NCBI RefSeq assembly: GCF_001889545.1
Contig: NZ_CP018194.1
Location: forward strand, 1,090,501-1,154,500
DNA from: Granulibacter bethesdensis
GTDB lineage: Bacteria > Pseudomonadota > Alphaproteobacteria > Acetobacterales > Acetobacteraceae
Direction of reading: 5' to 3'
DNA length: 64,000 nt
Positions 1-18,263 of the stretch are shown here, piece by piece; positions within the stretch are counted from its first letter, which is position 1; each line of letters starts with the position of its first letter. A program made the position numbers and the translations under genes. The notes below the pieces were generated by a model. It worked only from the letters and a program-made list of their open reading frames with translations, did not search any database and had not been told where the DNA came from.

Positions 1-248
1 GGGATCATACGACGGTCAGCCGTCAGATGGCGAAACTGGAGGATCTGGGCCTTGTCGAACGCCGGCCATCGGCGACGGACAAGCGTGTGCGGGAGGCGAT
101 AGTCAGCGCCAAGGGGCTCGACATGATCGTTGCACTGAATGCGGCCCGCGAACGGCTCGCCAATCGCATCCTGGCGTCCTGGACGGACGCGGAATTGGAC
201 GAATTGCGCAAGCTGCTCCGCCGCTTTGCCGACGATCTCATGCGCTAG
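1..248 (+). CDS. MarR-family transcriptional regulator, C-terminal part
   Basis: The gene enters from the left edge; reading frame starts at base 3. The visible ~81 residues begin inside the recognition helix of a winged helix (TTVSRQMAKLEDLGLVER), run through the wing (RRPSATDKR, a typical MarR wing with Asp-Lys-Arg) and end in the C-terminal dimerisation helices (ASWTDAELDELRKLLRRF). MarR proteins are dimeric DNA-binding repressors, often responding to phenolics or oxidants. The stop codon (246-248) overlaps the stop codon of a broken transposase on the other strand, so the IS remnant abuts or slightly alters the C-terminus. Target and ligand cannot be inferred. Confidence 0.8.
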   Translation, partial: DHTTVSRQMAKLEDLGLVERRPSATDKRVREAIVSAKGLDMIVALNAARERLANRILASWTDAELDELRKLLRRFADDLMR

Positions 249-770
249 GTGTTTAGTCCCGGTATATGGTAGATCGGATTGATGATGAACCGATCTGGGT
301 CTGACGTCCAGATTCTGGCGATGTATTCGTAGGGCGTGAGGCCGCCGAGCGTCTTGAGCCGGCGGGCAAAGTCATAGGCGGCCATGAAGTCGGCGAGGGG
401 CGTCCGCAGCTGGTCGTGGCTCTTGTAGTGGAAGCGATTGACTGTTGCCTCCTTGATGGTTCGGTTCATCCTTTCGACCTGTCCGTTGGTCCAGGGATGG
501 TTCGGCTTCGTCAGACGGTGCCCGATGTCGTTTGCCTCGCAGATCATGTCGAAGCGCATCTGGCGGGACCAGGCGGTGTTGCGGTTACGAGACTGGTCGG
601 CGAACTGATTGCCCTTGTCGGTCAGGATGGTGTGGATGCGGTAAGTGGGGGGCTGTCAGCAGGTGTTCGAGGAACTCCCATGCTGTCAGGCGATGTTCCA
701 ATCCAATGCGACTGTCGGCAGGGATCAGCCGACAGTCGCTCCCCTTGACGCCCTCCCAAGAATGTAACAT
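245..770 (-). pseudogene. Degenerate IS481-family transposase (DDE integrase core), 5'-truncated and frameshifted
   Basis: The reverse-strand frame 245-655 reads as the C-terminal half of an IS481-type DDE transposase: YRIHTILTDKGNQFAD (second catalytic Asp region), HRLTKPNHPWTNGQVERMNR (third catalytic Glu in GQVERMNRTIKE) and the conserved tail ending GLTPYEYIARIWTSDPDRF. A stop lies in frame at about 656-658, but the matching upstream segment (LEHRLTAWEFLEHLL) continues in another frame up to about 720-770, so there is at least one frameshift near 650. The N-terminal helix-turn-helix half is missing. No terminal inverted repeats could be recognised. It is an inactive remnant marking past insertion beside the MarR gene. 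Confidence 0.75.
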
Positions 771-782
771 GTAGAGTTACAT
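762..782. promoter_or_regulatory. Perfect inverted repeat, candidate operator of the Rrf2 regulator
   Basis: ATGTAAC (762-768) and GTTACAT (776-782) form perfect 7-base arms separated by 7 bases. The right arm overlaps the proposed start codon of the Rrf2 gene (781). Rrf2-family repressors commonly bind such AT-rich dyads over their own promoters, so autoregulation of this gene and the flavoprotein gene behind it is likely but inferred. Confidence 0.55.
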
Positions 783-1239
783 GTCTGACGACGTTCGCCT
801 GTCCAGTATTCTGCACCTGCTGCTTCACATGGCCGATGCATCTGCGCCGATGACATCCGATGCGATGGCCAAGGCGATGGGGAGCAATCCCGTGGTCGCC
901 CGCCGGACATTTGCAGGGCTGCGTGAGGCGGGGATCGTGCGATCGACAAAAGGGCCGGGCGGCGGATGGACGCTGGCGCGTCGCCCCAAGGAGGTGACAT
1001 TGCGAATGCTCTACGATGCCATCGGCCGGCCTCGGCTTTTCGCTTTTGGAAACCGTAGCGATCATTCGTCCTGTCTAGTTGAGCAGGCCGTGAACGCCGA
1101 GCTGGATGACGCCCGGCAACAGGCGGAGGCGGTCCTGCTCAGCCGTATGGAAGCCGTGACCTTGGCCTCCCTGTCCAAAGATTTCGATAAGCGGCTGGCC
1201 GCAATCGGAATGAAGCGATCGGATATCCGACATGCATGA
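781..1239 (+). CDS. Rrf2-family transcriptional regulator
   Basis: The 152-residue product has the Rrf2 winged-helix domain at residues 1-85: helix-turn-helix (MTSDAMAKAMGSNPVVARRTFAGL), then REAGIVRSTKGPGGGWTLAR, the family's glycine-rich wing. Rrf2 members such as IscR and NsrR sense Fe-S clusters or redox state through three cysteines; here only one Cys is visible (SSCLVEQ, about residue 99), so it is not a classical cluster sensor and may use thiol chemistry or another signal. The end overlaps the next gene's start by 8 bases, so the two are translationally coupled. Its partner is a thioredoxin-reductase-like flavoprotein, suggesting control of a redox response. The start at 781 lies inside an inverted repeat and lacks a clear ribosome site. 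Confidence 0.85.
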   Translation: MSDDVRLSSILHLLLHMADASAPMTSDAMAKAMGSNPVVARRTFAGLREAGIVRSTKGPGGGWTLARRPKEVTLRMLYDAIGRPRLFAFGNRSDHSSCLVEQAVNAELDDARQQAEAVLLSRMEAVTLASLSKDFDKRLAAIGMKRSDIRHA

Positions 1240-2119
1240 TGCAATCATTATCGGCGGCAGCTTCGCGGGGCTGTCCGCGGCCATGTATCTGGCGCGTGGC
1301 CGACACGATGTCGTCGTTCTCGACACCGGGACACCCCGCAACCGCTTCTCACCGCGATCGCACGCGTTTTTCAACCATGATGGATCGACGCCCGCCGCGA
1401 TGCTCGCGACGGCGCGAGACCAGTTGAAGCCCTATCAGACGGTTTGCTTGGGCAATGGCGAGGCGATCAGCGCGGCTGGCGCACAAGATGGCTTCTCCGT
1501 CATGCTCGCCGCGGGTGGGGTACTCGAGGGACGCCGTCTGATTCTCGCCAGCGGCGTTCGCGACATCCTGCCGCCGATCGACGGTCTTGCCGAGCGGTGG
1601 GGAACAAGCGTCCTGCACTGCCCCTATTGCCATGGCTATGAATATGCCGATCATCGGCTTGGCGTCCTTTATGCCGGCCCCGCTTCCTTGCATCACGCGC
1701 GCCTGATCGCGAACTGGGGGCCGACGACGCTGTTCACCCATGGCGTCGAGATCGAAGAAAGCGATACGCTCGCCGCGTATGGGATCGCGCTTGAAACCGC
1801 GCCGATCACAGCGCTGCGTGGCCCTGAGGGCAGGCTAAGCCATGTCGAAACGACGCCTGCGCGGTCCATCCCTCTGGATGCTCTCTATGTCGCGCCGGGG
1901 ATCGAACCGCGTGGCCATGTCGCCAGCGCGCTGGGCTGTACCATGCGGGAAACTTTGGCGGGCTCCATTCTGGCCGTCGACGAGCGGATGATGACGTCGG
2001 TTCCAGGCGTCTATGCCGCCGGCGACATTGCGGCATTTCCGTCGATGGTGGCGCGTGCTGTTGCCGATGGATCGCTGGCCGGTGCGATGGTTAGCCAGTC
2101 GCTCATTTTCGATAGCTGA
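1232..2119 (+). CDS. NAD(P)/FAD-dependent oxidoreductase, thioredoxin reductase-like
   Basis: The 295-residue cytosolic flavoprotein starts with an FAD-binding Rossmann motif (AIIIGGSFAGLSAAMYLARG), has the redox-active pair CPYC at residues 130-133 followed by HGYE, and ends with the second FAD motif (GVYAAGDIAAFPS). This is the layout of small TrxR-like reductases whose CxxC shuttles electrons from NAD(P)H to a thiol partner. The central NAD(P) domain around residues 142-190 is divergent (GVLYAGPASLHHARL), so cofactor preference is uncertain. It overlaps the upstream Rrf2 regulator by 8 bases. A dedicated thioredoxin is not seen nearby; the substrate is unknown. Confidence 0.85.
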   Translation: MHDAIIIGGSFAGLSAAMYLARGRHDVVVLDTGTPRNRFSPRSHAFFNHDGSTPAAMLATARDQLKPYQTVCLGNGEAISAAGAQDGFSVMLAAGGVLEGRRLILASGVRDILPPIDGLAERWGTSVLHCPYCHGYEYADHRLGVLYAGPASLHHARLIANWGPTTLFTHGVEIEESDTLAAYGIALETAPITALRGPEGRLSHVETTPARSIPLDALYVAPGIEPRGHVASALGCTMRETLAGSILAVDERMMTSVPGVYAAGDIAAFPSMVARAVADGSLAGAMVSQSLIFDS

Positions 2120-2132
2120 GCGGAGAACGCGC

Positions 2133-3089
2133 ATGTTCGTCTCACGCCTCGTTCTTGCCCTTCTGTTCGCGGGTATGCCCGTCGGGCTTGCTGCTCTACC
2201 AGCGCTTCCGGCGGTGGCCCCAATCGCTTCCATCGCCGATCGACGGGCCTGGGTTGGTGTCCAGCGCTTCCGTTACCTGGAAGCGGGGGCAGGAGATACG
2301 TTGATCGTCTTGCTGCACGGCTGGCCGCAGGATGCCGACGAGTGGCACAAGATCATGCCCCGGCTTGCAACGCGCTATCGCGTAGTCGCGGTGGACTTGC
2401 CGGGTGTCGGAGGCTTGACATCGCCGTCACGCGATTTCTCTAAGGCCGCGGTGGCGCGAGATCTGCACGGGTTCGTTCAGGGTCTTGGAGCTAGGCGCGT
2501 TGTGCTAGTTGGCCACGACATAGGCGGCATGGTGGCATATGCCTATGCGCGCCAGTTTCCCGGCGATGTGCAGGGCGTGGCAATCCTCGACGTGCCGCTT
2601 CCCGGTTTGGCGCCGTGGGACAAAATCGAAACGATCCAGCAGGCTTGGCACTTCCAGTTCAACGCGCAAGCGCCGCTTACCGAGCAACTCGTCGCGGGCC
2701 GGCAAGCGAGCTACTTCCGCTACTTCATCGACAGCAACGCCGGCAATCCCAAGGCGATCAGTGATGTGGATGTGGCCGGTTACGCGGCCGCCTATGAATC
2801 GGCAAACCAGCTATCTGCAGGTTTCGGGTTCTACCGGACATTCCCGCAGGACAAGCTGTTCAACGACGGACAGCGCGAGCCGTTGGCTGTGCCAATGCTG
2901 GTGGCTGGCGCAGACCGGAGCTTGGGTGCGGGCGTACAAGTGCTGGCACAGGCGCTACGTGACCACGGCGTGTCGGAGGTACGCTCGGCGACGATCGAGG
3001 GGGCCGGCCACTGGGTGGCAGAGGAGAAACCCGATGAGGTCGCCCAGCTGATCGAGCGATTCGTCGCCATCGTCGGCAAACCGCGATGA
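2133..3089 (+). CDS. Exported alpha/beta-fold hydrolase (epoxide hydrolase / dehalogenase-like)
   Basis: I chose the ATG at 2133, preceded by GCGGAG 8-13 bases upstream; it gives 318 residues beginning with a signal peptide (hydrophobic residues 5-30, small residues before about 30). The mature part is an alpha/beta hydrolase: oxyanion segment LLHGWPQ (about 61-66), nucleophile elbow VGHDIGG with Asp129, and a late GHW (His base) in GAGHWVAEEKP. An Asp nucleophile is typical of epoxide hydrolases and haloalkane dehalogenases rather than Ser esterases. It begins 13 bases after the flavoprotein gene and may be co-transcribed. The natural substrate cannot be read from sequence. Confidence 0.82.
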   Translation: MFVSRLVLALLFAGMPVGLAALPALPAVAPIASIADRRAWVGVQRFRYLEAGAGDTLIVLLHGWPQDADEWHKIMPRLATRYRVVAVDLPGVGGLTSPSRDFSKAAVARDLHGFVQGLGARRVVLVGHDIGGMVAYAYARQFPGDVQGVAILDVPLPGLAPWDKIETIQQAWHFQFNAQAPLTEQLVAGRQASYFRYFIDSNAGNPKAISDVDVAGYAAAYESANQLSAGFGFYRTFPQDKLFNDGQREPLAVPMLVAGADRSLGAGVQVLAQALRDHGVSEVRSATIEGAGHWVAEEKPDEVAQLIERFVAIVGKPR

Positions 3090-3138
3090 CTAACGGTGAT
3101 GCGTTTTCGCCGACAGTGGCAGAAAGCCTGGGGTGACC

Positions 3139-3495
3139 ATGCCCCTCACCGCCACCTGCCATTGTGGTGCCGTCGCAATTACGCTGTCGGAGCTTCCGAC
3201 CGAGCTGACGCGATGCAATTGCTCGCTCTGCCGCAGCTATGGCGTCGTCTGGGCGTATTACGACGAGGCCAGCGTCGCGATACCTGATGGGGTCGAGACC
3301 GATACGTATACGTGGAATGGTCGCAACGTCGATTTTCACCGTTGCCGTTGCTGCGGGTGTGTCACCCACTGGGTGCCGCGCCGACGATCGCGCAAAATGC
3401 GTGGCGTCAACGCCAACCTCATGCCCGCCGATCGAATCACTTCCGTTCGCGTTCGCCATCGCGACGGTGCAAAAACCGGCAAATACCTTGATTGA
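3139..3495 (+). CDS. GFA-family zinc protein (glutathione-dependent formaldehyde-activating-like)
   Basis: The ~118-residue protein begins MPLTATCHCGAV and contains the family's cysteine pattern: CHC (7-9), CNCSLC (26-31) and CRCCGC (69-74), which in GFA proteins bind two zinc ions. Founding members speed glutathione-formaldehyde adduct formation, but most family members have unknown roles. A GTG six bases upstream (3133) is an alternative start. It lies 50 bases downstream of the exported hydrolase. No glutathione-dependent formaldehyde dehydrogenase gene is adjacent, so a formaldehyde role is only suggested. Confidence 0.8.
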   Translation: MPLTATCHCGAVAITLSELPTELTRCNCSLCRSYGVVWAYYDEASVAIPDGVETDTYTWNGRNVDFHRCRCCGCVTHWVPRRRSRKMRGVNANLMPADRITSVRVRHRDGAKTGKYLD

Positions 3496-3597
3496 TATCG
3501 CCTGTGCTCTGCGAACGCTTAGGCTTGGCACAATCCCCATAATGCCATCCCAATGGGAATGCCTCGGCGGACTCGCCGCCCTCCCAATCGCGAAAGG

Positions 3598-3966
3598 TCA
3601 GCCGATCCGCCCAGCTTGACCAGCTATCACACGCCATTGCCCGGAAGTTCGCGACCATAGGCGTGTGTATGCGTAGGTTCCGTCGATCGTCATGTCGCCA
3701 AACGTGCCGGCAAGCGTGGCCTTCGTGGTCGCAAGCATCATATCGTCGACGGGATGAAACTGCCCTTCCGTCAGAGATATTTCAGTCAGCTTGAGGACAC
3801 CCGATGCGTGCGCCGAAAGGTCTTGGTCCTTACCTACGACCGTTCCATCAGGGCCGGTAAACACGAGACGGTCATCGATCAGCGCCGACAATGCGGTCAC
3901 GTCACCAGCGAGCATCGCCGCCCGTAACGCCTCCTCTGCTCGCGCGATTTCAGCTTCGTAGATCAT
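3598..3966 (-). CDS. SnoaL/NTF2-like protein (DUF4440 type)
   Basis: The ATG at 3966 is preceded on the reverse strand by AGGGGGAG and gives 122 residues. The sequence follows the NTF2-like cone fold: N-terminal helices (IARAEEALRAAMLAGDVTAL), then IDDRLVFTGPDGTVVGKD, and a beta-rich end with TRLWSRTSGQWRVIAGQAG. Such proteins are small-molecule isomerases, hydrolases or ligand-binding domains; the DLVF/GQWRV pattern suggests the DUF4440 group with unknown function. It lies head-to-head with nothing recognised; the next upstream gene is a LysR fragment on the same strand, 108 bases away. Confidence 0.72.
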   Translation of the reverse strand: MIYEAEIARAEEALRAAMLAGDVTALSALIDDRLVFTGPDGTVVGKDQDLSAHASGVLKLTEISLTEGQFHPVDDMMLATTKATLAGTFGDMTIDGTYAYTRLWSRTSGQWRVIAGQAGRIG

Positions 3967-4073
3967 GCTCCCCCTGTTTCGCCTTGGCCGATCGCGATGG
4001 CAAGGGTCAGGGAATGGCGACATTCCCATTTCTCGATCCCGATGAGAATGAATCCACGATCGCGATAGCAATC

Positions 4074-4424
4074 CTAAACGAGGCTATCGTGCAGGCGCGG
4101 CGAACGAAAAGGCTCGACCCGATTAGCGGCCACGAAGAAATCGATCGTCGCGCGCACCGCCGGACGCATCTGCCGCCGGCTGGCATGATAGATGAAGAAG
4201 CCGGGAAAGGGCGGACAATGTTCGGGGAACAGTTCGACCAGTCGCCCCGCCGCCAGATCGTCGGCCATGATGCTCTCGATCACGAACGCGATACCCGCGC
4301 CATCGCACACCGCGCGCCGTAGCAGCGCATCGTCGTTGACGATCAGCGTCTGCGGCAGCGCGTCGTCTGCAGCACGCCGTTGATGCAAGCTCAGCCTGCA
4401 GAAAGCGAACCGTAGTATCCCAAT
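4074..4424 (-). pseudogene. LysR-family regulator, C-terminal fragment
   Basis: The frame from 4424 to 4074 reads as the last third of a LysR substrate-binding domain: LIVNDDALLRRAVCDGAGIAFV, then GRLVELFPEHCPPFPGFF and the family's end motif YHASRRQMRPAVRATIDFFV. A stop codon lies immediately upstream at 4425-4427, the only start in the fragment is a weak TTG at 4388, and no helix-turn-helix domain exists nearby. About 200 N-terminal residues of a normal ~300-residue LysR protein are gone. It is most likely a decayed regulator left by rearrangement in this accessory block. Confidence 0.7.
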
Positions 4425-4430
4425 TTACAG

Positions 4431-5027
4431 GTTGATGGCCGGCAACGGCGACGCCTAACAGCTGTTAAGCCGCCCTCGCCACTCGAATTTCCCAATGATC
4501 TGAGTGCCCATCGCTTTCACCTCGGGTGCGCCAAATTCTGCCGATTGCCTTCCAAGATACACTATAGCCGCCGAACGCTGAATTCTTCGCAGAGCGTGCA
4601 ATGATATGTACGCGACAAAGGGGGCGGCGGCTTTTGACGGCCACAAAGTTTAAATAGTGCCCGGTCTCGGATAATCGGCGTCCTTCCAGAACCAAAGTGG
4701 CCAGAACCAAAGTGGCCAGAACCAAAGTGGTAGGATGTCTGGGCCGGCACTCAGCGCCAATTCGAGGCGCTCGACGGCATCATCCGCTCCGATTTCAGCC
4801 ACGGGAAGTCGAAATCCGGGAGGTGATTGGCGTGACCCCCCTGCTGTTCCAAGGAATGGGCCGACGGCGTTGAAGACACGCACGATGCTTGATGCGCTCG
4901 AAGCATAGGGAAAGTTTCAGTTCGCACGTTGATTCCGATCAATGCGCGTGCCGCCGCCGAAGCGCAGCTTACGCCTGACAATCAAAGCCGGATGCATGAA
5001 GCGAACCGGCAGAAAGGCAGGCTTTCC
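4431..5027. other. Intergenic stretch, no recognisable gene
   Basis: About 600 bases between the LysR fragment and pntAA. Short open frames exist on both strands, but none resembles a known family and none has convincing codon use. The only clear structure is a 15-base triple tandem repeat (4686-4730). The last bases must contain the pnt ribosome site (AAAGGCAGG at about 5014-5021) and probably its promoter. Confidence 0.5.
4686..4730. repeat. Three perfect tandem copies of a 15-base unit
   Basis: The unit CCAGAACCAAAGTGG occurs at 4686-4700, 4701-4715 and 4716-4730 without a mismatch. Because the unit is a multiple of three, both strands stay open through it; the reverse strand would read repeated PLWFW. 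Similar short iterons can be transposase-binding sites at IS ends, but no adjoining transposase is recognised. Function unknown. Confidence 0.85.
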
Positions 5028-6176
5028 ATGGCTTTCGTGCTTGGCCTTCTCAAAGAGGCCCATGCGGAAGAAAAGCGTGTGGCGTTAATACCGGCGGTCG
5101 CATCCCGCCTGACGCGTCTGGGCGCGGACATCAGGATCGAATCCGGCGCAGGGCTGAGCGCCACATTCACCGATACGGCTTATGTCGGTTGCCGGATCGA
5201 GCTGGACCGGCGGAAGCTCCTGAGTGAGGCGGATATCGTGCTCGCCGTACAACCGCCCCCCGTTGAAACGGTCCGGATGATGAAGGCGGGCGCGGCCCTG
5301 ATCTCGTTCGTCTATGGGGCAGCCTCTCCTGATCTCGTCAAAGCGCTCCGCGATGGCAAGATCACAAGCTTTGCGATGGAACAGATCCCGCGTATCAGCC
5401 GCGCCCAGGCGATGGACGCCTTGTCGAGCCAGGCGGCGCTTGCCGGTTACTACGCCCCGCTCATCGGGGCCGTGCATATGCCGCGTATCCTGCCCATGAT
5501 GACGACGGCGGTCGGATCGCTGCGTGCGGCACGGGTTCTGGTCATGGGGCTCGGTGTCGCCGGATTGCAGGCGCTTGCCACAGCCCATCGCCTCGGTGCC
5601 GTGACCGAGGGATACGACGTCCGCCCGGAAACGAAGGAGCAGGCCCTGTCGCTCGGCGCCAAATTCGTCGACACGGGCGTCGATGCGCGTGGCGAAGGCG
5701 GCTATGCCCGCGAACTGACGGCCGAGGAACAGGCGAAGGTCCGGTCCGTGCTCGACAGGCATATCGCTGAGGCTGACCTGATCATTACCACGGCCTCGGT
5801 TCCGGGTCGTCCGGCACCGAAGCTGATCTCGGCCAGGCAGATCGCCGCCATGAAGCCGGGTTCCGTCATCGTCGATCTCGGCGCGGAAGGCGGCGGCAAC
5901 TGCGAAGGCACGCGACCCGGTGAAACGGTGGCGGTCGGTCCGGTCACCATCCTCGGGCTTGTGAACGCGCCCTCCATGCTCGCTCAGCATGCGAGCGAAC
6001 TTTACGCCAAGAACGTCGCCAACCTTGTCGAACTGATCGTCAAGGACGGGACCATCCATCCCGATTTCGACGACGCGGTCATCGCCGGAACCGTGCTCAC
6101 CCATGACGGAGCCATCCGCAATCCGGCCGTTCAGGCCGCGCTCGCGGCCGTCAGGCTCAAGGAGACGGCAGCATGA
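5028..6176 (+). CDS. pntAA: NAD(P) transhydrogenase subunit alpha part 1
   Basis: This 382-residue soluble subunit binds NAD(H) (domain I) of the proton-translocating transhydrogenase, which reduces NADP+ with NADH at the expense of the proton gradient. The start at 5028 follows AAAGGCAGG and gives MAFVLGLLKEAHAEEKRVAL, matching the family's N-terminus (KE..EKRVA..P). Seen further on: the nucleotide-binding motif RVLVMGLGVAGLQALATAHRLGA, the RD-loop-like YDVRPETKEQ segment and the mobile loop region ITTASVPGRPAPKLI. The longer frame from 4929 lacks family similarity. The stop overlaps the start of pntAB (ATGA). Split alpha subunits (AA plus AB) are usual in alphaproteobacteria. Confidence 0.93.
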   Translation: MAFVLGLLKEAHAEEKRVALIPAVASRLTRLGADIRIESGAGLSATFTDTAYVGCRIELDRRKLLSEADIVLAVQPPPVETVRMMKAGAALISFVYGAASPDLVKALRDGKITSFAMEQIPRISRAQAMDALSSQAALAGYYAPLIGAVHMPRILPMMTTAVGSLRAARVLVMGLGVAGLQALATAHRLGAVTEGYDVRPETKEQALSLGAKFVDTGVDARGEGGYARELTAEEQAKVRSVLDRHIAEADLIITTASVPGRPAPKLISARQIAAMKPGSVIVDLGAEGGGNCEGTRPGETVAVGPVTILGLVNAPSMLAQHASELYAKNVANLVELIVKDGTIHPDFDDAVIAGTVLTHDGAIRNPAVQAALAAVRLKETAA

Positions 6177-6481
6177 CCAGCGACGTCACACTCACATGGC
6201 TCGTTGCCCTCTATATCTTCATGCTCGCGGCCTTCACTGGCTATGAAGTGATAAGCCGTGTGCCATCAATCTTGCACACGCCGCTGATGTCGGGATCGAA
6301 CTTCATCCACGGTATCGTCGTCGTCGGCGCGCTACACACCCTGCTGACTGCTACCGGCCCTGCGGCGCAGGGCATCGGCTTCATCGGTGTCCTGCTGGGC
6401 GCAGCAAACGCGACCGGCGGCTACGTCGTCACCGACCGCATGTTGGCCATGTTCCGCGCCAGCGGCCCGAAGGGAGGTTGA
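6173..6481 (+). CDS. pntAB: NAD(P) transhydrogenase subunit alpha part 2
   Basis: A 102-residue membrane protein forming part of the proton channel (domain II). It has about three transmembrane segments: LTWLVALYIFMLAAFTGYEVI, IHGIVVVGALHTLLTATG and IGFIGVLLGAANATGGYVVTD, ending with MLAMFRASG as in other PntAB proteins. It overlaps pntAA by 4 bases and ends two bases before pntB, so the three subunits are translated together. Confidence 0.93.
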   Translation: MTSDVTLTWLVALYIFMLAAFTGYEVISRVPSILHTPLMSGSNFIHGIVVVGALHTLLTATGPAAQGIGFIGVLLGAANATGGYVVTDRMLAMFRASGPKGG

Positions 6482-6483
6482 CC

Positions 6484-7929
6484 ATGTCATACACTCTTCT
6501 TCTCACGTCTCTGGAGGGTGTAAGTGGTCTGGCCGCCGCCGGTCTCTTCATCTTCGGCCTGAAACGCATGTCGTCGCCGGTCACGGCACTGGCCGGTATC
6601 AAGATCGCCGGGCTCGGCATGCTGGTGGCCGTCATGGCTGCCTTCCTCGTCCTTGTGCACCTTTCCCCGGAAGCACAGACCAAACTCCCGCAGAATCTCG
6701 GGCTTGCCGCGGCTGCGCTTCTGATTGGCGGCGGCTGGGCGCTGTGGAGCGGCCGCAGGGTGGCCATGACCGGCATGCCGCAGATGGTCGCGCTCTATAA
6801 TGGTATGGGCGGCGGAGCGGCGGCGGCGATTGCGGCAGCCGAGGTCGTTCGGGGCCCTTCCACGAGCCTTTTACTGACCGGCGTGACGCTTGCCGGCGCC
6901 TTGATCGGTTCGGTTTCGCTGACCGGTTCCATCATCGCCTGGGCGAAGCTGGACGGCCGGATTAACAAGCCGTGGCGCTTCCAGGGCCAGCAGGTTCTCA
7001 ATGGCGGCATCTTTCTGCTCGCTCTCATGCTTGCCGGACTGACGGTTACATATGGTGGGGGCGGCCTGGCAGGAGCGCTTGCGCCGGCCTTCTTCCTGGT
7101 GGCGCTGGCTTTCGGCGTGCTGATGACGTTGCCGATCGGCGGTGCGGACATGCCCGTGGTGATCTCGCTCTATAACGCCTTCACCGGTCTCGCCGTCGGG
7201 CTTGAAGGCTATGCGCTCGCCAATCCCGCCTTGATGATTGCAGGCATGGTGGTCGGCTCTGCCGGCACGCTGCTGACCGTCCTCATGGCGAAGGCGATGA
7301 ACCGGTCGCTCTCCAATGTGCTGTTCAGCAATTTCGGCGACACCGTCGCGACGGGAAGCAGCGAGGTTGCGGGCAGTCTGAAGCCGGTCAATGCGGACGA
7401 TGCGGCGATCGCCATGCGCTACGCCTCTTCGGTCATCATTGTACCGGGTTACGGCCTGGCTGTCGCCCAGGCGCAGCAGAAGCTCTATGAATTCGTCAAA
7501 CTGCTGCAGGCCGCCGGCGTCGATGTCAAATTTGCCATCCATCCGGTTGCCGGACGCATGCCGGGGCACATGAACGTTCTTCTCGCCGAGGCTGGCGTTC
7601 CCTACGACATCATCTTCGACATGGAAGACATCAACGATGCTTTCGCCTCGACGGATGTCGCATTGGTCATCGGCGCCAACGACGTCGTGAACCCGGCTGC
7701 CCGCACCGACAAGACATCGCCGATCTACGGTATGCCGATCCTCAACGTCGACAAGGCCCATCAGGTCTACGTCGTCAAGCGTGGACAGGGACGCGGCTAT
7801 GCCGGGGTCGAGAACCTGCTTTTTTACGCTGACAACTGCAACATGGTTTACGGCGATGCCCAGGCCGTGCTGACCCAAATGGTTCAATCCATCAAGGAAC
7901 TGGCAACAAAGGAGCCGGCCGCCGCCTGA
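6484..7929 (+). CDS. pntB: NAD(P) transhydrogenase subunit beta
   Basis: This 481-residue subunit has the rest of the membrane domain (about nine hydrophobic segments over residues 1-270) and the NADP(H)-binding domain III (about 300-481) with VIIVPGYGLAVAQAQ, the HPVAGRMPGHMNVLLAEA loop and GANDVVNPAA. The ATG at 6484 lies 8 bases after GGGAGG inside the end of pntAB; a TTG at 6478 is less likely. With PntAA and PntAB it makes NADPH from NADH and proton influx. Downstream lie an aldehyde and two alcohol dehydrogenases whose NADH output it could convert. Confidence 0.94.
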   Translation: MSYTLLLTSLEGVSGLAAAGLFIFGLKRMSSPVTALAGIKIAGLGMLVAVMAAFLVLVHLSPEAQTKLPQNLGLAAAALLIGGGWALWSGRRVAMTGMPQMVALYNGMGGGAAAAIAAAEVVRGPSTSLLLTGVTLAGALIGSVSLTGSIIAWAKLDGRINKPWRFQGQQVLNGGIFLLALMLAGLTVTYGGGGLAGALAPAFFLVALAFGVLMTLPIGGADMPVVISLYNAFTGLAVGLEGYALANPALMIAGMVVGSAGTLLTVLMAKAMNRSLSNVLFSNFGDTVATGSSEVAGSLKPVNADDAAIAMRYASSVIIVPGYGLAVAQAQQKLYEFVKLLQAAGVDVKFAIHPVAGRMPGHMNVLLAEAGVPYDIIFDMEDINDAFASTDVALVIGANDVVNPAARTDKTSPIYGMPILNVDKAHQVYVVKRGQGRGYAGVENLLFYADNCNMVYGDAQAVLTQMVQSIKELATKEPAAA

Positions 7930-7968
7930 AGTCGACGGTTATCTTCCTGTTCAACGAAAGAAACGGAC

Positions 7969-9360
7969 ATGACCTACGCGACCACCTACCCGTACACGGG
8001 TGAAATTCTCAAGACCTTTCCGAACGCCACGGACACGGAGGTCGGCCATGCCATAGATGCTGCCCACGCAGCCTTTCTCGCCTGGCGCGACACGTCGTTC
8101 GCGGAACGTGGCGCCGTGCTCCAGAAGGCGGCGAACCTTCTGCGCAAGGATGCCGATGCCTACGCCAAGCTTCTGACGCTGGAAATGGGCAAGCTTTTCA
8201 CCGAGGCAAAGGCCGAGGTCGAACTGTCTGCGAAGATCTTCGAATATTATGTCAGGAACGCCGAATCCCTGTTGCGGCCTGAACTCTTGAAAGTCGCAGA
8301 TCCGGCCGAAGGCGAGGCCGTGATCGTCTGCGAGCCGCTCGGCGTTCTGCTCGCCATCGAGCCGTGGAATTTCCCCTATTACCAAATCGCCCGGATCATC
8401 GCGCCGCAGCTCTCGGCCGGTAACACGATGCTTCTCAAGCACGCCTCCAACGTGCCGCAGAGCGCGGCGGCTTTCGAACGGCTGATGCATGAAGCAGGTC
8501 TGCCCGCCGGCGCCTTCACCAATCTCTATGCCACTCGCTCGCAGGTGGAGATGATCATCAACGACCCGCGCGTTCATGGCGTGGCGCTGACGGGGTCGGA
8601 GGATGCCGGCGCGGTCGTCGCGGCGCAGGCAGGCAGAGCGTTGAAGAAATCGACCATGGAGCTTGGCGGGGCCGACGCTTTTGTCGTTCTGGCCGACGCC
8701 GATCTGGAAAAGACTGTCAGATGGGCTGTCTTCGGCCGGCACTGGAACGGCGGCCAGGTCTGCGTCTCGTCCAAACGCATGATCATTGTCGACAAGGTCT
8801 ATGACGAGTTTCTGGCGCGATACCGTCAAGGCGTCGCGAGCCTGAAGGCGGGTGATCCCTTCGCCCCCGAAACCACGCTCGCTCCGCTATCCTCGCAGGG
8901 CGCCGCTGACGACATCAGGGACAAGATCAAGCAGGCCGTCGCTCATGGCGCGAAGGCCGAGGAGGTCGGCCCTCCCGTCCCCAATCAGGGCGCGTTCGTG
9001 CAGCCGACCATTCTGACCGACGTCGGAGAGGATAATCCGGCCCGTTACTGGGAGTTCTTCGGCCCGGTATCGATGTTGTTCCGGGCGAAGGACGAGGAGG
9101 ATGCGATCCGTATTGCCAATGACTCGCCATTCGGCTTGGGCGGTTCGGTGTTCACGTCGGACACGAAACACGGTGCGGAGGTCGCCAGGAAGATCTCGAC
9201 CGGCATGGTGTTCATCAACCACCCGACCAAGGTCGAGGCGGACCTGCCATTCGGTGGGGTCCGGCGCTCGGGCTACGGACGTGAGCTTCTGGGCCTCGGC
9301 CTCAAGGAGTTCGTCAATCACAAACTCATTGACATCGTCGATATCGACGCCCGGTTCTGA
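7969..9360 (+). CDS. NAD(P)-dependent aldehyde dehydrogenase (succinate-semialdehyde dehydrogenase-like)
   Basis: The 463-residue enzyme is a complete ALDH-superfamily protein oxidising an aldehyde to an acid in the cytosol. Visible are the cofactor motif PWNFP (132-136), the general base Glu231 in [10 protein letters not shown], and the catalytic Cys265 in [10 protein letters not shown]. Length and the QVC(V)SSKR context fit the short SSADH group (YneI/GabD-like) rather than 500-residue GabD. It begins 39 bases after pntB and 10 bases before an alcohol dehydrogenase, so an alcohol-to-aldehyde-to-acid path with the two ADHs is plausible. Actual substrate not determinable; gabD would be an over-call. 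Confidence 0.88.
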
Positions 9361-9370
9361 AGAGGCTGTC

Positions 9371-10399
9371 ATGGACAAGAGCATGAAGGCGGCAGTCGTC
9401 CGCGAATTCGGAAAACCGCTCGTTTTGGAAGAAGTTCCGGTGCCCAGGCCGGGTGCGGGACAAATTCTCGTCAAGATCGCAGCGACTGGTGTCTGCCACA
9501 CCGATCTGCATGCCGCCGACGGCGATTGGCCGGTCAAGCCGAAACCACCCTTTATTCCCGGTCATGAGGGCGTGGGGCACGTCGTGGCGGTTGGTTCCGG
9601 CGTCAGGCATGTCAAGGAAGGCGACCGCGTTGGCGTTCCCTGGCTTTACACCGCCTGTGGCCATTGCAAGCACTGCCTCGGGGGCTGGGAAACGCTCTGT
9701 GAGGAACAGCAGAATACGGGGTATTCCGTCAACGGCAGCTTTGCTGAATATGTCGTCGCGGACCCGAACTTTGTCGGACATCTGCCGGAGAACGTCTCCT
9801 TCGTCGATATCGCGCCCATCCTTTGCGCAGGCGTCACTGTCTACAAGGGGCTCAAAGTGACCGACACCAAGCCTGGCGACTGGGTGGTGATTTCGGGGAT
9901 CGGCGGGCTTGGCCATCTCGCTGTGCAATATGCGAAGGCCATGGGCCTGAATGTCATCGCCGTCGATATCGACGATGCCAAGCTCGACCTTGCCAAAAGG
10001 TTGGGCGCATCGCTCGCCGTCAATGCCAAAAAGGCCGATCCGGTCGCCTTCGTCAAGAAGGAGGCCCGTGGAGTCCAGGGCGTGCTCGTCACCGCTGTTT
10101 CGCCGAAGGCGTTCGAACAGGCACTTCATATGGTCGATCGTGGCGGCACGGTCTCGCTCAACGGTCTGCCGCCGGGCGACTTCCCCCTGTCGATCTTCGA
10201 CACTGTTCTGAACGGAACAACTGTGCGCGGCTCGATCGTCGGCACACGGCTCGATCTCCAGGAAGCCCTCGACTTCGCTGGCGACGGCAAGGTCAAGGCG
10301 ACGATCTCGACCGAGCGATTGGAGAATATCAACGACATCTTCGCCCGCATGCACGAGGGTGATATCCAGGGCCGTGTCGTCATCGACTTTGAGAAATAG
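9371..10399 (+). CDS. adhP: Zinc-dependent alcohol dehydrogenase, AdhP type
   Basis: The 342-residue MDR-superfamily enzyme interconverts alcohols and aldehydes with NAD(H). Catalytic zinc ligands are Cys42 (GVCHTDLH), His65-Glu66 (PGHEG) and Cys152 ([10 protein letters not shown]); four structural-zinc cysteines are at 96, 99, 102 and 110. The Rossmann motif [15 protein letters not shown] is followed by [11 protein letters not shown], an acidic residue that favours NAD. Similarity to AdhP runs the full length. The start at 9371 is 10 bases after the aldehyde dehydrogenase stop; a second ADH follows after 5 bases, indicating one operon. Confidence 0.9.
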
Positions 10400-10404
10400 A
10401 CACC

Positions 10405-11460
10405 ATGCAAGCCATGGTCCTGACAGTTAACGGCTCGCCGCTCGAATGGATCGAGCGGCCGGATCCTGTTCCCGGTCCCGGTGAGCTCCGTGTCCGTGTG
10501 GCAGCGTGCGGCGTGTGCCGGACCGATCTGCATGTAACGGATGGCGAGTTGCCCAATCCGCGCCTGCCGATCATTCCGGGTCACGAAATCGTCGGTTACG
10601 TCGATGCTCTCGGCGAGGGGGTTTCCGGGTTCCATATCGGTGAGCGAGTTGGCATTCCCTGGCTCGGTCATACTTGCGGGGCGTGTCCATATTGCCGGTC
10701 AGGGCATGAGAACCTTTGCGATGCGCCCGAGTTCACGGGCTACACACGTGACGGTGGCTATGCGACGATGGTGACTGCCGAAGCACAATTCACCTTTCCA
10801 CTCGGCGGACCAGGCAACGACGTCGATCTCGCGCCACTTCTCTGCGCCGGGCTTATTGGCTGGCGCTCCCTCGTCATGGCGGGCGATGGCAAGCGTCTCG
10901 GTCTTTATGGCTTTGGCGCGGCGGCGCATATCATCGCCCAGATTGCCCGATGGCAAGGTCGCGACATCTACGCATTTACCAGGCCGGGCAATCTTGCCTC
11001 GCAACGTTTTGCACTCGATCTGGGCGCGCATTGGGCTGGCGGCTCCGACGAGACACCGCCGGAATTCCTTGACGCCGCGATCCTGTTCGCCCCCGTTGGC
11101 GCCCTTGTGCCTCAGGCACTCAGGGCGGTTCGCAAGGGAGGGCAAGTCGTCTGTGCCGGAATTCACATGAGCGATATTCCGAGTTTTCCTTATTCCCTGT
11201 TGTGGGAAGAACGGAAGGTTGTTTCCGTCGCCAATCTGACACGCAAGGATGCTCTGGAGTTTCTGTCTCTCGCCTTGCAAATCGGCGTCAAGACACAAAT
11301 CACGACGTATCCATTGAGAGATGCCAATCGGGCGCTCTCCGATCTGCGCGCAGGCTGCTTCGATGGTGCGGCAGTGCTGGTGCCTCAGGCCGGAACCGGC
11401 AAACAGCTTGATCTCTCATGCGCCAATGGATGCAGACTGCATTTAAAGCAGGGCTATTAG
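10405..11460 (+). CDS. Zinc-dependent alcohol dehydrogenase family protein
   Basis: A second medium-chain dehydrogenase (351 residues) with catalytic ligands Cys38 (GVCRTDLH), His60-Glu61 and a distal Cys in LLCAGLIGWRSL, and structural-zinc cysteines 91, 94, 97 and 105. The nucleotide motif is GLYGFGAAAHIIAQIA, the variant GFGAAAH found in the subgroup often annotated as alcohol dehydrogenase propanol-preferring. The last ~23 residues (TGKQLDLSCANGCRLHLKQGY) extend beyond the usual end ...GAAVLVP and could come from a small 3' frameshift. It closes the pnt-ald-adh run; 221 bases then separate it from the encapsulin gene. Confidence 0.87.
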   Translation: MQAMVLTVNGSPLEWIERPDPVPGPGELRVRVAACGVCRTDLHVTDGELPNPRLPIIPGHEIVGYVDALGEGVSGFHIGERVGIPWLGHTCGACPYCRSGHENLCDAPEFTGYTRDGGYATMVTAEAQFTFPLGGPGNDVDLAPLLCAGLIGWRSLVMAGDGKRLGLYGFGAAAHIIAQIARWQGRDIYAFTRPGNLASQRFALDLGAHWAGGSDETPPEFLDAAILFAPVGALVPQALRAVRKGGQVVCAGIHMSDIPSFPYSLLWEERKVVSVANLTRKDALEFLSLALQIGVKTQITTYPLRDANRALSDLRAGCFDGAAVLVPQAGTGKQLDLSCANGCRLHLKQGY

Positions 11461-11574
11461 CATAGATTCGGCAAGGCCGTAATCAGCGAGCGCCCAGGCC
11501 ATGATCCTGATTATATTGTTGTGTTTGCCTGTCCCGCGCAAGGTCAGTTTGATCTATTACTAAAACATGCCAAT

Positions 11575-11621
11575 TTTGTAGGAAATATTTCATTGTAGAT
11601 ACAATTGATCTCCTATACAAA
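11575..11621. promoter_or_regulatory. AT-rich dyad upstream of the encapsulin operon, candidate promoter/operator
   Basis: Within the 221-base gap before the encapsulin gene, a perfect palindrome ATTGTA-GA-TACAAT spans 11592-11605. It is nested in an imperfect outer dyad, TTTGTAGGA (11575-11583) and TCCTATACAAA (11611-11621). The base composition is far more AT-rich than the surroundings, as expected of a promoter. In Synechococcus the related SrpI shell is induced by sulfur starvation through CysR; whether a sulfur regulator acts here is inference only. Confidence 0.45.
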
Positions 11622-11681
11622 GATGATGTGAGCCCGCCGCAAGCGGATTAGGGCAAATGATTTACGTGAAGGTTCTCGATC

Positions 11682-12596
11682 ATGTCTGATACGCCTCATC
11701 TGACGTCCCTCGGCGATGAAGCCGCCCGCCAGCTTGCCAATGCGACCAAGACTGTGCCGCAGATGGTGTCGATCAGTCCGCGCTGGCTGGTGCATTGCCT
11801 GGAGTGGATGCCGGTTGAGGCAGGTATTCTCCGCGTTAACCGGGTCAAGAACGAGGAAAACGTCATTGTCGGCTGCTCCGGACGCGATGAACGCGAATTG
11901 CCGCAGACCTTCGTCGATTATGAACCTAACCCGCGTGAGTACATGTTGTGCGCGGTCAATACGGTGGTGGATGTCCACACGCGGATCTCGGACCTCTATT
12001 CTTCGCCGCACAACCAGATCTCGGAGCAGCTTCGCCTGTCGATCGAGGTCATCAAGGAACAGCAGGAAAGCCAGCTCATCAATTCCGAGGAATATGGTCT
12101 GCTGGCGAATGTGGCCAAGTCGCAGCGGATCGAAAGCCCCACCGGTTTGCCGACACCTGATGCGATGGACAGCCTTATCGCCAAGTGCTGGAAGGAGCCT
12201 GGATTTTTCCTCGCGCACCCCGACACAATTGCCGCATTCGGTCGTGAGTGCACCCGCCGCGGCGTGCCGCCGGCAACCATCACCATGTTTGGCTCGCCGT
12301 TCCTCAGCTGGCGTGGCATTCCGATTGTTCCGTCCGACAAGGTGCCGGTCGTCAATGGCAAGTCATCGATCATCCTGCTGCGTGTCGGCCAGCAGCGGCA
12401 GGGCGTAGTCGGTCTGTTCCAGCCGAACTTGCCGGGTGAACAGTCGATGGGCCTGTCGGTTCGCTTCATGGGTATCAATGATAAGGCGATCGCCTCCTAT
12501 CTCGTGTCGCTCTATTGCTCGCTTGTGATTCTGACCGACGATGCGGCGGCAGTTCTCGAAAACATCGATATCACGCAGTTCCACACCTATGCCTGA
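11682..12596 (+). CDS. Family 2A encapsulin shell protein (SrpI-like)
   Basis: The 304-residue protein matches the SrpI-like Family 2A encapsulins, HK97-fold proteins that self-assemble into a closed protein shell. Landmarks: an N-terminal arm (HLTSLGDEAARQLANATKT), the segment SPRWLVHCLEWMPVEAGILRVN, the E-loop-like region EPNPREYMLCAVNTVVDVHTR, the A-domain segment TITMFGSPFLSWRGIPIVPS and the end GLSVRFMGINDKAIASYLVS. It has no cyclic-nucleotide-binding insert, so it is 2A and not 2B. Its last 8 bases overlap the start of a cysteine desulfurase with a long disordered N-terminus, the defining cargo of this family. Known 2A shells take up the desulfurase and store elemental sulfur; the same role here is inference from family and context. 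A ribosome site GTGAAGG precedes the ATG. Confidence 0.9.
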   Translation: MSDTPHLTSLGDEAARQLANATKTVPQMVSISPRWLVHCLEWMPVEAGILRVNRVKNEENVIVGCSGRDERELPQTFVDYEPNPREYMLCAVNTVVDVHTRISDLYSSPHNQISEQLRLSIEVIKEQQESQLINSEEYGLLANVAKSQRIESPTGLPTPDAMDSLIAKCWKEPGFFLAHPDTIAAFGRECTRRGVPPATITMFGSPFLSWRGIPIVPSDKVPVVNGKSSIILLRVGQQRQGVVGLFQPNLPGEQSMGLSVRFMGINDKAIASYLVSLYCSLVILTDDAAAVLENIDITQFHTYA

Positions 12597-14439
12597 TCCC
12601 AACGCACCTGCAGATCTGACCAGCCCGCCAGGGATGCCGGATACGGCTGCGCTGGCGGAAATGGCAAATGCCTTCTTCCGGGCATTGCCGGGAAGTGCTG
12701 GGGCCTTTGGTCCGGCATCGCCCGCCCAACAACAACCGACTGCGCCGGCAGTGGCGGGGGCAGGCTTTGCCCCGCCATCTATGCCTGCACCGCCGATTCC
12801 GGCTGCCGCTCGCGTCGTTCCGACCGTGCCGGGACCGAGCCCGTTCGCGACCCTTCCGGTCTCGGCGGATCCCAATCTCGGCTCGATTGCCAACCAGAAC
12901 CGCAGCTCCGAGCCGGGGCTCTATATAACAGGCTTTGCTGCACAGCGTCCGGAGGCTGCGTTGCGGCCTATCCCGTCGCTCGATCAGACATTGCCGAACG
13001 AGTCCGAGTTGAAGGAACTGCTTGCCGGACATGATCATCGTCCGGCATCGGGGCTGGCCATCCAGCAACCGGCAGGCGGTGGAACTGCTCCGAGCATCGG
13101 GCAGTCGTCGGGTGACCCCTATTTCCTGAAGCCCCTGCCGCAGCCACCAGCGGTGGCTCCGGCGGTCAAGGTGCCGCTGAACCAGCCTTCGACGCATGGG
13201 GAAGGTGCCGCCAGCTCTGGTGCAGGCTTCAACCCTTATCTGGTGCGTCAGGATTTTCCGATCCTCAATGAGCGCGTTAATGGAAAGCCGCTCATTTGGC
13301 TCGATAATGCCGCGACGACACAAAAGCCGCGCGCGGTCATCGACCGGCTAAGCTATTTCTACGAGCACGAGAACTCCAATATCCATCGCGCCGCCCACAC
13401 ATTGGCGGCGCGGGCGACGGATGCCTATGAGGCAGCGCGCGAGGAAGTGCGCCAATTCATCAATGCCGGCTCGACGGATGAAATCGTCTTCGTGCGTGGC
13501 ACCACCGAAGGTATCAACCTTGTCGCCGAGACTTGGGGGCGCGCCAATATCGGGCCCGGCGACGAAATCCTGATCACCTGGCTGGAACACCACGCCAATA
13601 TCGTGCCGTGGCATCGTCTGGCAAAGTCGGTTGGAGCCAAGCTCAAGGTCGCACCCGTCGATGACAATGGCGATATCATTGTTGAGGCTTTCGCGAGCCT
13701 GCTGACGCCACGTACAAAGCTCGTGTCGCTGACGCAGGTGTCGAATGCACTTGGCACCGTGACGCCGGCGGCGCTTCTGGTGGCGATGGCGCATGCGGCG
13801 GGGGCGAAAGTGCTCGTCGATGGCGCGCAGTCGGTTTCCCATATGCCGACTGATGTGCTGGCGCTTGATGCCGATTGGTTCGTTCTCTCCGGACATAAGG
13901 TGTTCGGCCCGACGGGCATCGGCGCGCTGTACGGCAAGAAGGCAATCCTCGATTCCATGCCGCCCTATCAGAGCGGCGGCAACATGATCGCGGATGTGAC
14001 CTTCGAAGAGATCCGCTATCAGCCGCCGCCGTTTCTGTTCGAGGCGGGCACCGGCAATATCGCGGATGCCGTGGGTCTGGGCGCGGCGCTGGCATATCTC
14101 TCTCGTCTCGGCCTTCCGGCTGTGGCAGCGCACGAACATGCCCTCATTGAGGATTGTGTGCGGCAGCTGAAGACAATTTCGGACGTCAGGATCATCGGCA
14201 ATCCGAAGGAGCGTGCTGGCGTTGTTTCCTTCATTGTTGATGGCATGAAGACCGAGGACGTTGGCAAGGCTCTGTCGCGTGATGGTATCGCCGTGCGCTC
14301 CGGACATCATTGTGCCCAGCCGATTCTGAGGCGCTTTGGGATTGAGAGCTCGGTGCGGCCGTCTTTTGCGGTCTACAACACGCATGAGGATATCGATGCG
14401 TTGATCCGCTCGGTCTGGCGCATCAAGGCAGGACGCTGA
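12589..14439 (+). CDS. Encapsulated cysteine desulfurase (SufS-like) with N-terminal cargo-loading domain
   Basis: The ATG at 12589, 8 bases inside the encapsulin gene, gives 616 residues; SufS enzymes have about 410. Residues 1-213 are rich in Pro, Ala, Gln and Gly with only short conserved-looking islands (AALAEMANAFFRALPG 20-35; GLYITGF 110-116; LPNESELKELL 135-145; DPYFLKP 176-182), matching the disordered targeting region of Family 2A cargo. Residues 214-616 are a complete class V PLP enzyme: DNAATTQKP, His pair in WLEHHANIVPW, PLP lysine Lys437 in LSGHKVFGP, and catalytic Cys575 in RSGHHCAQP. It converts cysteine to alanine plus persulfide sulfur, presumably inside the shell. No SufE/SufU acceptor or serine acetyltransferase gene is adjacent. 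Confidence 0.92.
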   Translation: MPDPNAPADLTSPPGMPDTAALAEMANAFFRALPGSAGAFGPASPAQQQPTAPAVAGAGFAPPSMPAPPIPAAARVVPTVPGPSPFATLPVSADPNLGSIANQNRSSEPGLYITGFAAQRPEAALRPIPSLDQTLPNESELKELLAGHDHRPASGLAIQQPAGGGTAPSIGQSSGDPYFLKPLPQPPAVAPAVKVPLNQPSTHGEGAASSGAGFNPYLVRQDFPILNERVNGKPLIWLDNAATTQKPRAVIDRLSYFYEHENSNIHRAAHTLAARATDAYEAAREEVRQFINAGSTDEIVFVRGTTEGINLVAETWGRANIGPGDEILITWLEHHANIVPWHRLAKSVGAKLKVAPVDDNGDIIVEAFASLLTPRTKLVSLTQVSNALGTVTPAALLVAMAHAAGAKVLVDGAQSVSHMPTDVLALDADWFVLSGHKVFGPTGIGALYGKKAILDSMPPYQSGGNMIADVTFEEIRYQPPPFLFEAGTGNIADAVGLGAALAYLSRLGLPAVAAHEHALIEDCVRQLKTISDVRIIGNPKERAGVVSFIVDGMKTEDVGKALSRDGIAVRSGHHCAQPILRRFGIESSVRPSFAVYNTHEDIDALIRSVWRIKAGR

Positions 14440-14548
14440 AGCTGTAACTGGGCGAGTGGCGCAAAAAGGGAGGGCTGATGACCAGGTTGCATGCAACCGT
14501 CGATGCCATTGGCGCTACCGCCCAGATCAAGGCCAATCCCAGCAGGAA

Positions 14549-14576
14549 TAAAAAGCCGCCGATTGACTGGCGGCTT
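14549..14576 (-). terminator. Rho-independent terminator read on the reverse strand
   Basis: AAGCCGCC (14553-14560) pairs perfectly with GGCGGCTT (14569-14576) around an 8-base loop. On the reverse strand the stem is followed by a T-rich tail (TTTTTATT), as in an intrinsic terminator. On the forward strand, downstream of the desulfurase, the T-run is short (TTTATG), so it would work less well there. Confidence 0.65.
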
Positions 14577-14945
14577 TATGAAGAGCACCCTTTCTGCACC
14601 GGCTCGGTATAGTTGGTATTTTTGACCTCTCGTTTTGTCTTGATCCGGATGAATGGATGGCCCTGCGCCCGTGTGGCGATCCTCTGTTCAAGCGCGGACC
14701 GGTCATCCGTGAGCAAGGCGCGCCTCGCCTTCTCCAAAGCCCGGCAGATCGCCCGCGATCGCGTGCATGAACCGGTAGGCGACCTCTTGGGCTGTTCGCC
14801 TTTGCTGGCGTAGATGCACCGTCTTGCGGGCATCGTTGACAAGACGCGTTCATGATTTGCTGTTTTCAGACAGCGTTTCATCGCAACCTGGTCTCCTGGG
14901 ATGTGATAGGCTCAGGCCATCATTCATTTTTACCAGTCGGGGAGC
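14577..14945. other. Gap between desulfurase and gadB; possible decayed reverse-strand gene
   Basis: No family is recognised in this stretch. On the reverse strand two frames of moderate quality abut (VNDARKTVHLRQQRRTAQEV in one, ALEKARRALLTDDRSALEQR in another) and end at the terminator at 14549-14576, which would fit a frameshifted small gene. The right end must hold the gadB promoter and the ribosome site GGGGAG at 14939-14944. Confidence 0.3.
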
Positions 14946-17528: not shown

Positions 17529-17585
17529 AAGGTCAGTGGTCCGGTTGTCTGGCGTGCAGGGGGCAGTAGGCCGGTGGCGTAGTGC

Positions 17586-18263
17586 TTATTGCAGAAATGG
17601 ATTGCTTTTCCGTTCTGCACCGAAGGTGGAGCCTGGTCCATGGCCGCAGAGAAAGGCCACTTCATCTCCTAACGGAAGCAGCTTCGTGTGAATGGAGTTC
17701 AGAAGCTCATCAGGGTTGCCATAGGGAAAATCGGTCCGCCCGACAGAACCTTGAAACAGCACGTCGCCGACAATGGCGAAATGCGCGGGATGGATCAGGA
17801 CGATATGGCCTGGCGTATGACCGGGGCAGTGCAGAACCTGAAACACATGTCTGCCAATGGAGAGTGTATCCCCTTCCTCCAGCCAGCGGTCAGATGTGGC
17901 ATTTTTCATGCCCGGAATCCCGTAGGCAGCGGATTGGCGGGCGATGTTCTCCATCAGGAACTGATCACGCCGGTCTGGTCCGGAAACTGGCACAGTCAGA
18001 CTGGAGCGGTTCTGAAGAGCTGTTTTCAGATCCTCCACCCCGCCTGCGTGATCCAGATGTCCGTGAGTCAGCCAGATACCTTCAACCAGAACGCCGTGAT
18101 GGTCGATGGCCGCCATGATGGAGGCGGCGTCTCCACCGGGATCAATCACGACACCCCGATTGGTTTCCTCATCCCAGAGCAATGTGCAGTTCTGCTCGAA
18201 AGGGGTTACCGGAATGACCATCAGGCGCAGCCCGGGCGGAGGGGAAGGGAAATTCTGGCTCAT
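17586..18263 (-). CDS. MBL-fold metallohydrolase (glyoxalase II-like)
   Basis: The 225-residue protein has the metal-binding THGHLDHAGG motif (about residues 66-75), a second ligand site HCPGHTPGH and GDVLFQGSVGRTD, the set seen in YcbL-type glyoxalase II proteins. These hydrolyse thioesters such as S-lactoylglutathione with a binuclear metal site. The first part, VIPVTPFEQNCTLLWDEET, is characteristic of the group. It lies 57 bases upstream-side of the antiporter on the same strand and may share a transcript. It lacks the C-terminal domain of classical GloB. Confidence 0.88.
   Translation of the reverse strand: MSQNFPSPPPGLRLMVIPVTPFEQNCTLLWDEETNRGVVIDPGGDAASIMAAIDHHGVLVEGIWLTHGHLDHAGGVEDLKTALQNRSSLTVPVSGPDRRDQFLMENIARQSAAYGIPGMKNATSDRWLEEGDTLSIGRHVFQVLHCPGHTPGHIVLIHPAHFAIVGDVLFQGSVGRTDFPYGNPDELLNSIHTKLLPLGDEVAFLCGHGPGSTFGAERKSNPFLQ

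Follow-up and report, generated by a model that had tools for sequence, protein, structure and literature searches.

The cargo-loaded Family 2A encapsulin of Acinetobacter baumannii (8t6r) is said to be a site of sulfur storage. A second described member of the family, SrpI of Synechococcus elongatus with its cargo CyD (6x8m, 6x8t), was solved by Nichols et al. (PMC8049743), whose available text assigns G194 and P196 of the shell to the pore, places F262 and Y273 near the cargo density, rates R192 as poorly conserved, and gives two motifs in the CyD front, LARLANEFFS and AASPYYFLDG. Sulfur storage is one of two models proposed in the same text, and a later paper (PMC12407261, in the part available) cites the A. 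baumannii study for sulfur storage by this cargo class. The one paper found that contains both "encapsulin" and "Acetobacteraceae", the family of the host studied here, deals in its available part with a linocin/peroxidase encapsulin (PMC8776678).

We analyzed a stretch of 64,000 nucleotides of the Granulibacter bethesdensis chromosome (the window; NZ_CP018194.1, positions 1,090,501 to 1,154,500), in which a first-pass annotation had proposed a SrpI-like Family 2A shell gene followed by a cysteine desulfurase cargo gene. The features of this pair are as follows.

11461..11681, + strand: AT-richer gap of 221 bases upstream of the shell gene, where a promoter is likely to lie
11682..12596, + strand: Family 2A encapsulin shell gene, ATG start, 304 aa, without a cNMP-binding insert
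12589..14439, + strand: gene for an encapsulated SufS-type cysteine desulfurase cargo, ATG at 12589, 616 aa
12589..13224, + strand: Pro/Ala/Gly-rich front of the cargo (codons 1-212), disordered by AF2 pLDDT and composition
12652..12678, + strand: front motif 1 (residues 22-30, LAEMANAFF), which corresponds to LARLANEFFS of CyD and lies in a predicted short helix
12994..13023, + strand: front motif 3 (residues 136-145, PNESELKELL), within the sample confined to alphaproteobacterial cargos
13117..13128, + strand: front motif 2 (residues 177-180, PYFL), which corresponds to AASPYYFLDG of CyD

Both gene assignments hold. The annotation had suggested a search with family models, and in this search the shell scores 501.4 bits against NCBIfam encap_f2a (NF041162; cut-off 380) and the cargo 800.3 bits against NF041166, a bare pass by 0.3 bits over the cut-off of 800, with E-values far past chance (6.5e-151 and 1.8e-240). 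Against the Family 2B model the shell reaches 399.5 bits, below the cut-off of 400. Its sole Pfam match at E <= 0.01 is PF19307 (SrpI-like), and no cNMP-binding domain lies inside the 304 residues, which align with SrpI without a gap over residues 3-303. Relatives with solved structures are SrpI, Mmp1 and the Family 2A shell of A. baumannii; the SrpI structure 6x8m matches the shell at E 4.8e-149, and tblastn identity is 70.6% to SrpI and 68.1% to the A. baumannii shell, which belongs to the same family and is more distant from the window shell than are the Hyphomicrobiales relatives described below. Because the alignment with SrpI is free of gaps, SrpI numbering applies to the window shell, and we find that it has the same pore and cargo-site residues: G194, P196, F262 and Y273 are all kept and are invariant in 25 of 25 aligned shells. 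R192 is also retained and invariant across these 25 shells, and the position of SrpI R304 is an Ala. The AF2 model of the shell is weak (mean pLDDT 55.3, built with 25 aligned rows), so the assignment of an HK97 fold leans on homology through the SrpI alignment. Taken together, these comparisons confirm that the predicted product of 11682..12596 is a Family 2A encapsulin shell.

The cargo gene overlaps the shell gene by 8 bases (12589-12596), as first reported. A longer in-frame start (ATG 12541, 632 aa) is disfavored, since a Met aligned with the one at 12589 and the same 8-base overlap occur in all six closest relatives (L047-L052). With an ample margin, the cargo also scores 543.8 bits against the SufS subfamily model TIGR01979 (cut-off 475.1). 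K437 in SGHK, C575 in RSGHHCAQP and R590 in SVRPSF are all present, the first two as originally noted; in line with what is established for SufS-type enzymes, we take K437 to be the PLP lysine, C575 the persulfide cysteine and R590 a further catalytic residue. AF2 models the desulfurase domain mostly at pLDDT 74-97, with dips around 241-280 and 461-490. The predicted product of 12589..14439 is thus confirmed as a Family 2A cysteine desulfurase cargo. The pair as a whole is a well-supported added member of known Family 2A and not a novel kind.

A disordered front of about 213 residues had been proposed for the cargo, and the AF2 model agrees: pLDDT is below 50 at residues 1-17 and 31-212, with a helix at 19-31. 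The first 217 residues contain 18.4% Pro and 18.0% Ala, and neither Cys nor Trp. Compared with the 225-residue front of CyD in the available text of PMC8049743, the window front of about 212 residues is likewise long and disordered and carries the same two motifs. Searched with loose patterns, motif 1 was found in 64 of 72 cargo fronts (shuffle mean 0.29) and motif 2 in 69 of 72 (shuffle mean 0.54); L092, whose cargo match begins at domain position 95, was left out of the count. The window front additionally carries PNESELKELL, although the comparison with CyD covers the two published motifs only. The search pattern for this third motif, P[GNSRDQ][EDQ]xx[LI]xx[LIM][LIVM] (short form P[GN]ExELxxLL), was devised after viewing the alignment, and it occurs in 13 of 72 fronts compared with a mean of 0.37 and a maximum of 2 in shuffles. 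The carriers (the window, L047-L052, L029-L032, L034 and L082) are alphaproteobacterial by record title or come from the window's own family, which is taken as alphaproteobacterial. L033, also from that family, is without the motif; L030, L031 and L032 have three copies each. A helix predicted over the motif (138-146) is of low confidence, with a pLDDT of about 40. The motif was not found in the available parts of PMC8049743 or PMC8346489 and may be in print. We tentatively suggest, as an idea somewhat doubtful in itself, that motif 3 could serve alphaproteobacterial cargos alone as a third motif for docking to the shell, and that its copy number in the front might tune the strength of loading or the number of cargo copies inside the shell.

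Using the shell as query, we scanned genome contigs and obtained 125 relatives, of which 80 were kept; the scan relies on exact short peptide patterns and so can miss relatives. The six best shells, at 85-88% identity, belong to Siculibacillus lacustris, a Hyphomicrobiales MAG, an Azospirillaceae MAG, two Phyllobacterium and Xaviernesmea oryzae; past these six (five Hyphomicrobiales and the Azospirillaceae MAG) the next shells are at 73% or lower. DNA similarity between window positions 1-18500 and the six best loci is restricted to the two genes. A shell match occurs in 7 of the 299 genomes searched from the host's own family, and in 6 of them, among these the host genome, it exceeds the cut-off of the model; of 385 genomes sampled from the class, 4 have a shell match, again counting the host genome. 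The six host-family loci compared (L029-L034) have the same encapsulin family and the same two-gene order, but their shells are only 50-72% identical to that of the window. One host-family genome, G076, carries two different Family 2A pairs, L034 (G076:C71) and L030 (G076:C154), in one of which the N-terminal part of the shell lies in another frame. Dyadobacter sediminis (L111) has a divergent, long-branched shell that is Family 2A-like (53%), and the locus retrieved gave no desulfurase match.

Trees were built from 75 shells and 72 cargo domains, leaving out 12 loci whose shells are long and Family 2B-like (L114-L119, L121-L126), L128 (a 63% shell from the host's class) and, from the cargo tree, L082, whose one-frame match is only 189 residues. 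In both trees the window falls into a 7-row clade with the six best loci at an SH-aLRT of 100, and the nearest by branching are the sister loci of Siculibacillus lacustris (L047; shell 88%, cargo domain 88% to the window) and the Azospirillaceae MAG (L049; shell 87%, cargo domain 83%), both with the same 8-base overlap. The host-family pairs L029-L032 and L034 take a separate place. Forcing the window to group with them costs 87 (shell) and 109 (cargo) log-likelihood units, with p-AU values of 6.6e-8 and 7.9e-4 that are post hoc, since the tested clade was named after the shell tree had been viewed. For the rows compared, the trees reject vertical inheritance within the host's family. As a yardstick, the housekeeping protein GatA of the window (39797-41296) is 65-66% identical to Shinella/Sinorhizobium among the matches listed, with Tistrella mobilis the nearest among plasmid records (66.6%); a shell at 85-88% to Hyphomicrobiales against a GatA at 65-66% is what transfer would give.

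The genomic setting of the pair can be described by two further features.

1..14851, no strand: window portion of a genomic island that lies between tRNA-Arg(tct) and the shared backbone
14440..14851, no strand: right edge of the island, which looks decayed

SrpI/CyD is carried on a plasmid with sulfur-related genes, whereas the window pair lies in a chromosomal tRNA-Arg island and has no identified sulfur gene beside it. The island spans 33,398 bases (genome 1071954-1105351), and the encapsulin pair is its last gene pair, in accord with the first-pass placement at the end of an accessory block. On the left, similarity to two other species of the genus (G100 and G157, one genome each) stops at the end of tRNA-Arg(tct) (genome 1071953-1071954); on the right, it resumes at window positions 14852 and 14862. 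No shell match was found anywhere in G100 or G157. In G157 only 20 bases separate the tRNA-Arg end (15601) from the shared right flank (15621), a near-empty site, and G100 has about 2 kb there, read as LysR-like and SDR-like ORFs, with GGCGCGCCA at both ends. GC content is 0.620 for the island and 0.596 for window positions 14852-64000. Third-position GC is uninformative on transfer (pair 0.70; 7 island ORFs 0.73; 14 presumed backbone ORFs 0.68).

Across the genus, tRNA-Arg(tct) is an insertion hot spot, holding 33.4 kb in the host, about 2 kb in G100 and nearly nothing in G157 (L045:4377-5680, the left end of the island outside the window; L026:13568-15650; L027:15525-15621). The tRNA-adjoining 422-aa ORF has Recombinase and zinc-ribbon domains and no resolvase domain was found in it; the other island ORFs scanned encode MFS transporters, aldehyde and alcohol dehydrogenases, a transhydrogenase, regulators, flavin enzymes, an acetyltransferase, a nitronate monooxygenase and a transposase. 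Parts of window positions 1-9300 have matches elsewhere in the sister genomes, including an aldehyde dehydrogenase stretch at 71-72% in both (with a 71% copy elsewhere in the host genome) and 247 bases at 97% in G100, so the island may have been built in several steps. At the right edge, positions 14740-14847 share 75% identity with a piece of an ORF that lies close to an integrase-like ORF at another place in G100 (L025), and for this reason the edge looks like decayed island DNA. No attR copy of the tRNA-Arg end was recognized near 14852, where no word of at least 10 bases is shared at the edge and the nearest 10-base match is at 14724. The first gene past the island is a glutamate decarboxylase with mixed matches. 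A plasmid vehicle was considered and rejected: among 32 plasmid records with a shell match, none exceeds 80% (best S. elongatus, 70.6%), which gives no indication of a plasmid source.

Absence from the two sister genomes, the island edges and the concordant shell and cargo trees bear out the earlier suggestion of acquisition, and as judged from sequence comparison it is well supported that horizontal transfer brought in the two genes as a unit. The source would be an alphaproteobacterium related to Hyphomicrobiales, and the landing site the far end of the tRNA-Arg island; because the trees are unrooted, we infer this direction of transfer.

The pair had also been called the full two-gene set of a sulfur-storing compartment. 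Shell and cargo are indeed both present, but this set appears to be the minimal form, since four of the six closest relatives (L047, L050, L051, L052) add a gene for a serine acetyltransferase (SAT, L050-like) no more than 300 bases 3′ of the cargo and on its strand. An adjoining SAT or rhodanese gene is common in such operons but is no requirement. The same placement is seen in four of the six host-family loci (L029, L030, L032, L034), although the L032 gene runs off its contig and L030 and L034 belong to a single genome. Overall, 12 of 72 cargo-bearing loci have a SAT match at E <= 1e-15; the remaining four, at 36-40% identity (L068, L072, L094, L105), may be other enzymes. At this threshold no SAT match was found in the window or in L045 and L046, nor was a remnant behind the cargo (14400-14960, E up to 10). 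Compared with its two sisters in the trees, the window pair has neither the SAT gene found behind the L047 cargo nor the sulfate permease gene immediately upstream of the L049 pair. Two scanned neighbors of the L048 pair encode a luciferase-like monooxygenase and a heparinase-like protein. Genes for SAT, SufE and rhodanese are present elsewhere in the host genome, so the cysteine supply and sulfur acceptors could come from unlinked genes. The nearest rhodanese is a 284-aa ORF at 56413-57267 on the - strand, about 42 kb from the pair, with two rhodanese matches, and is a possible sulfur acceptor. The aminotransferase class V family occurs in 8 places in the host genome, with one other strong match at 462.5 bits.

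Altogether, we consider it very probable that the locus encodes a Family 2A encapsulin system in which a desulfurase cargo is tethered inside the shell and sulfur is kept there or released later, the pair having been acquired horizontally. About 60 shell copies would assemble into a T=1 shell of about 24 nm, like SrpI. The cargo front, through its LAEMANAFF helix together with PNESELKELL and PYFL, would tether the desulfurase to the inner wall near the threefold axis (F262, Y273), and the fivefold pore (G194, P196) would admit cysteine. The enzyme, with PLP on K437 and the persulfide on C575, would then convert cysteine to alanine and sulfane sulfur, which could be held inside as a store or later handed to acceptors. 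Sulfur storage by the window pair is drawn from its relatives and is thus expected by analogy.

The same shell and cargo could instead serve controlled delivery, with the shell restricting persulfide sulfur to chosen acceptors such as rhodanese or SufE. The available part of PMC8346489 puts this forward with rhodaneses and serine acetyltransferases as enriched partners, and the host genome does have SufE and rhodanese genes; however, its rhodanese matches do not adjoin the pair, none of the 10 neighbor ORFs scanned in relatives is a rhodanese, and storage is what the later PMC12407261, in its available text, cites for this cargo class. We regard delivery as a possible function with the lesser share of the probability. 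It is unlikely that the pair is an inert passenger, intact and brought in with the island and unused or unexpressed in the host, even though several observations fit such a state. No sigma-70 promoter candidate was found in the gap before the shell gene (11461-11681), and the two candidates over 11400-15000 are in line with shuffles (mean 1.6); additionally, the SAT partner is absent, the adjoining region edge is apparently decayed, and the island recombinase ORF is without a resolvase catalytic domain. However, the promoter scan covered sigma-70 only, and both ORFs are full length with their catalytic, pore and cargo-site residues and motifs retained, which suggests selection or recent arrival. 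That the shell is the major capsid protein of a prophage remnant, a phage capsid reading being the alternative that the first-pass annotation had in view, can be dismissed almost entirely, because the HK97 fold in common and a weak match to the best PHROG (phrog_212 major head protein, 30.7 bits) stand against 501.4 bits for the encapsulin model, an adjoining cargo gene with loading motifs, seven Foldseek matches of the weak AF2 shell model at E <= 0.001 that are all Family 2 encapsulins with phage capsids only next, and protein matches in just 2 of 50,697 phage records, both with an annotated desulfurase under the match too. These two records (CAKLQH020000001.1 and CAKLQF020000001.1; 328 and 378 kb), labelled Acinetobacter phage, encode a Family 2A shell, under the annotation 35 kDa antigen, together with a desulfurase annotated as SufS, and are perhaps bacterial sequence under a phage label.

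In a literature search of partial coverage we found no report of this operon, and curated NCBI models already name both of its genes. The understanding of the encapsulin family is unchanged by the window pair. What the locus offers is a clear example of encapsulin transfer between bacteria of distant kinship in which the unit consists of shell and cargo only, with a near-empty site in a sister genome for comparison. The locus also suggests that these two genes can spread and be retained by themselves, without the SAT partner found in four of the six closest relatives. Additionally, the clade-specific third motif of the cargo front provides a concrete lead on how this class of cargo is loaded.
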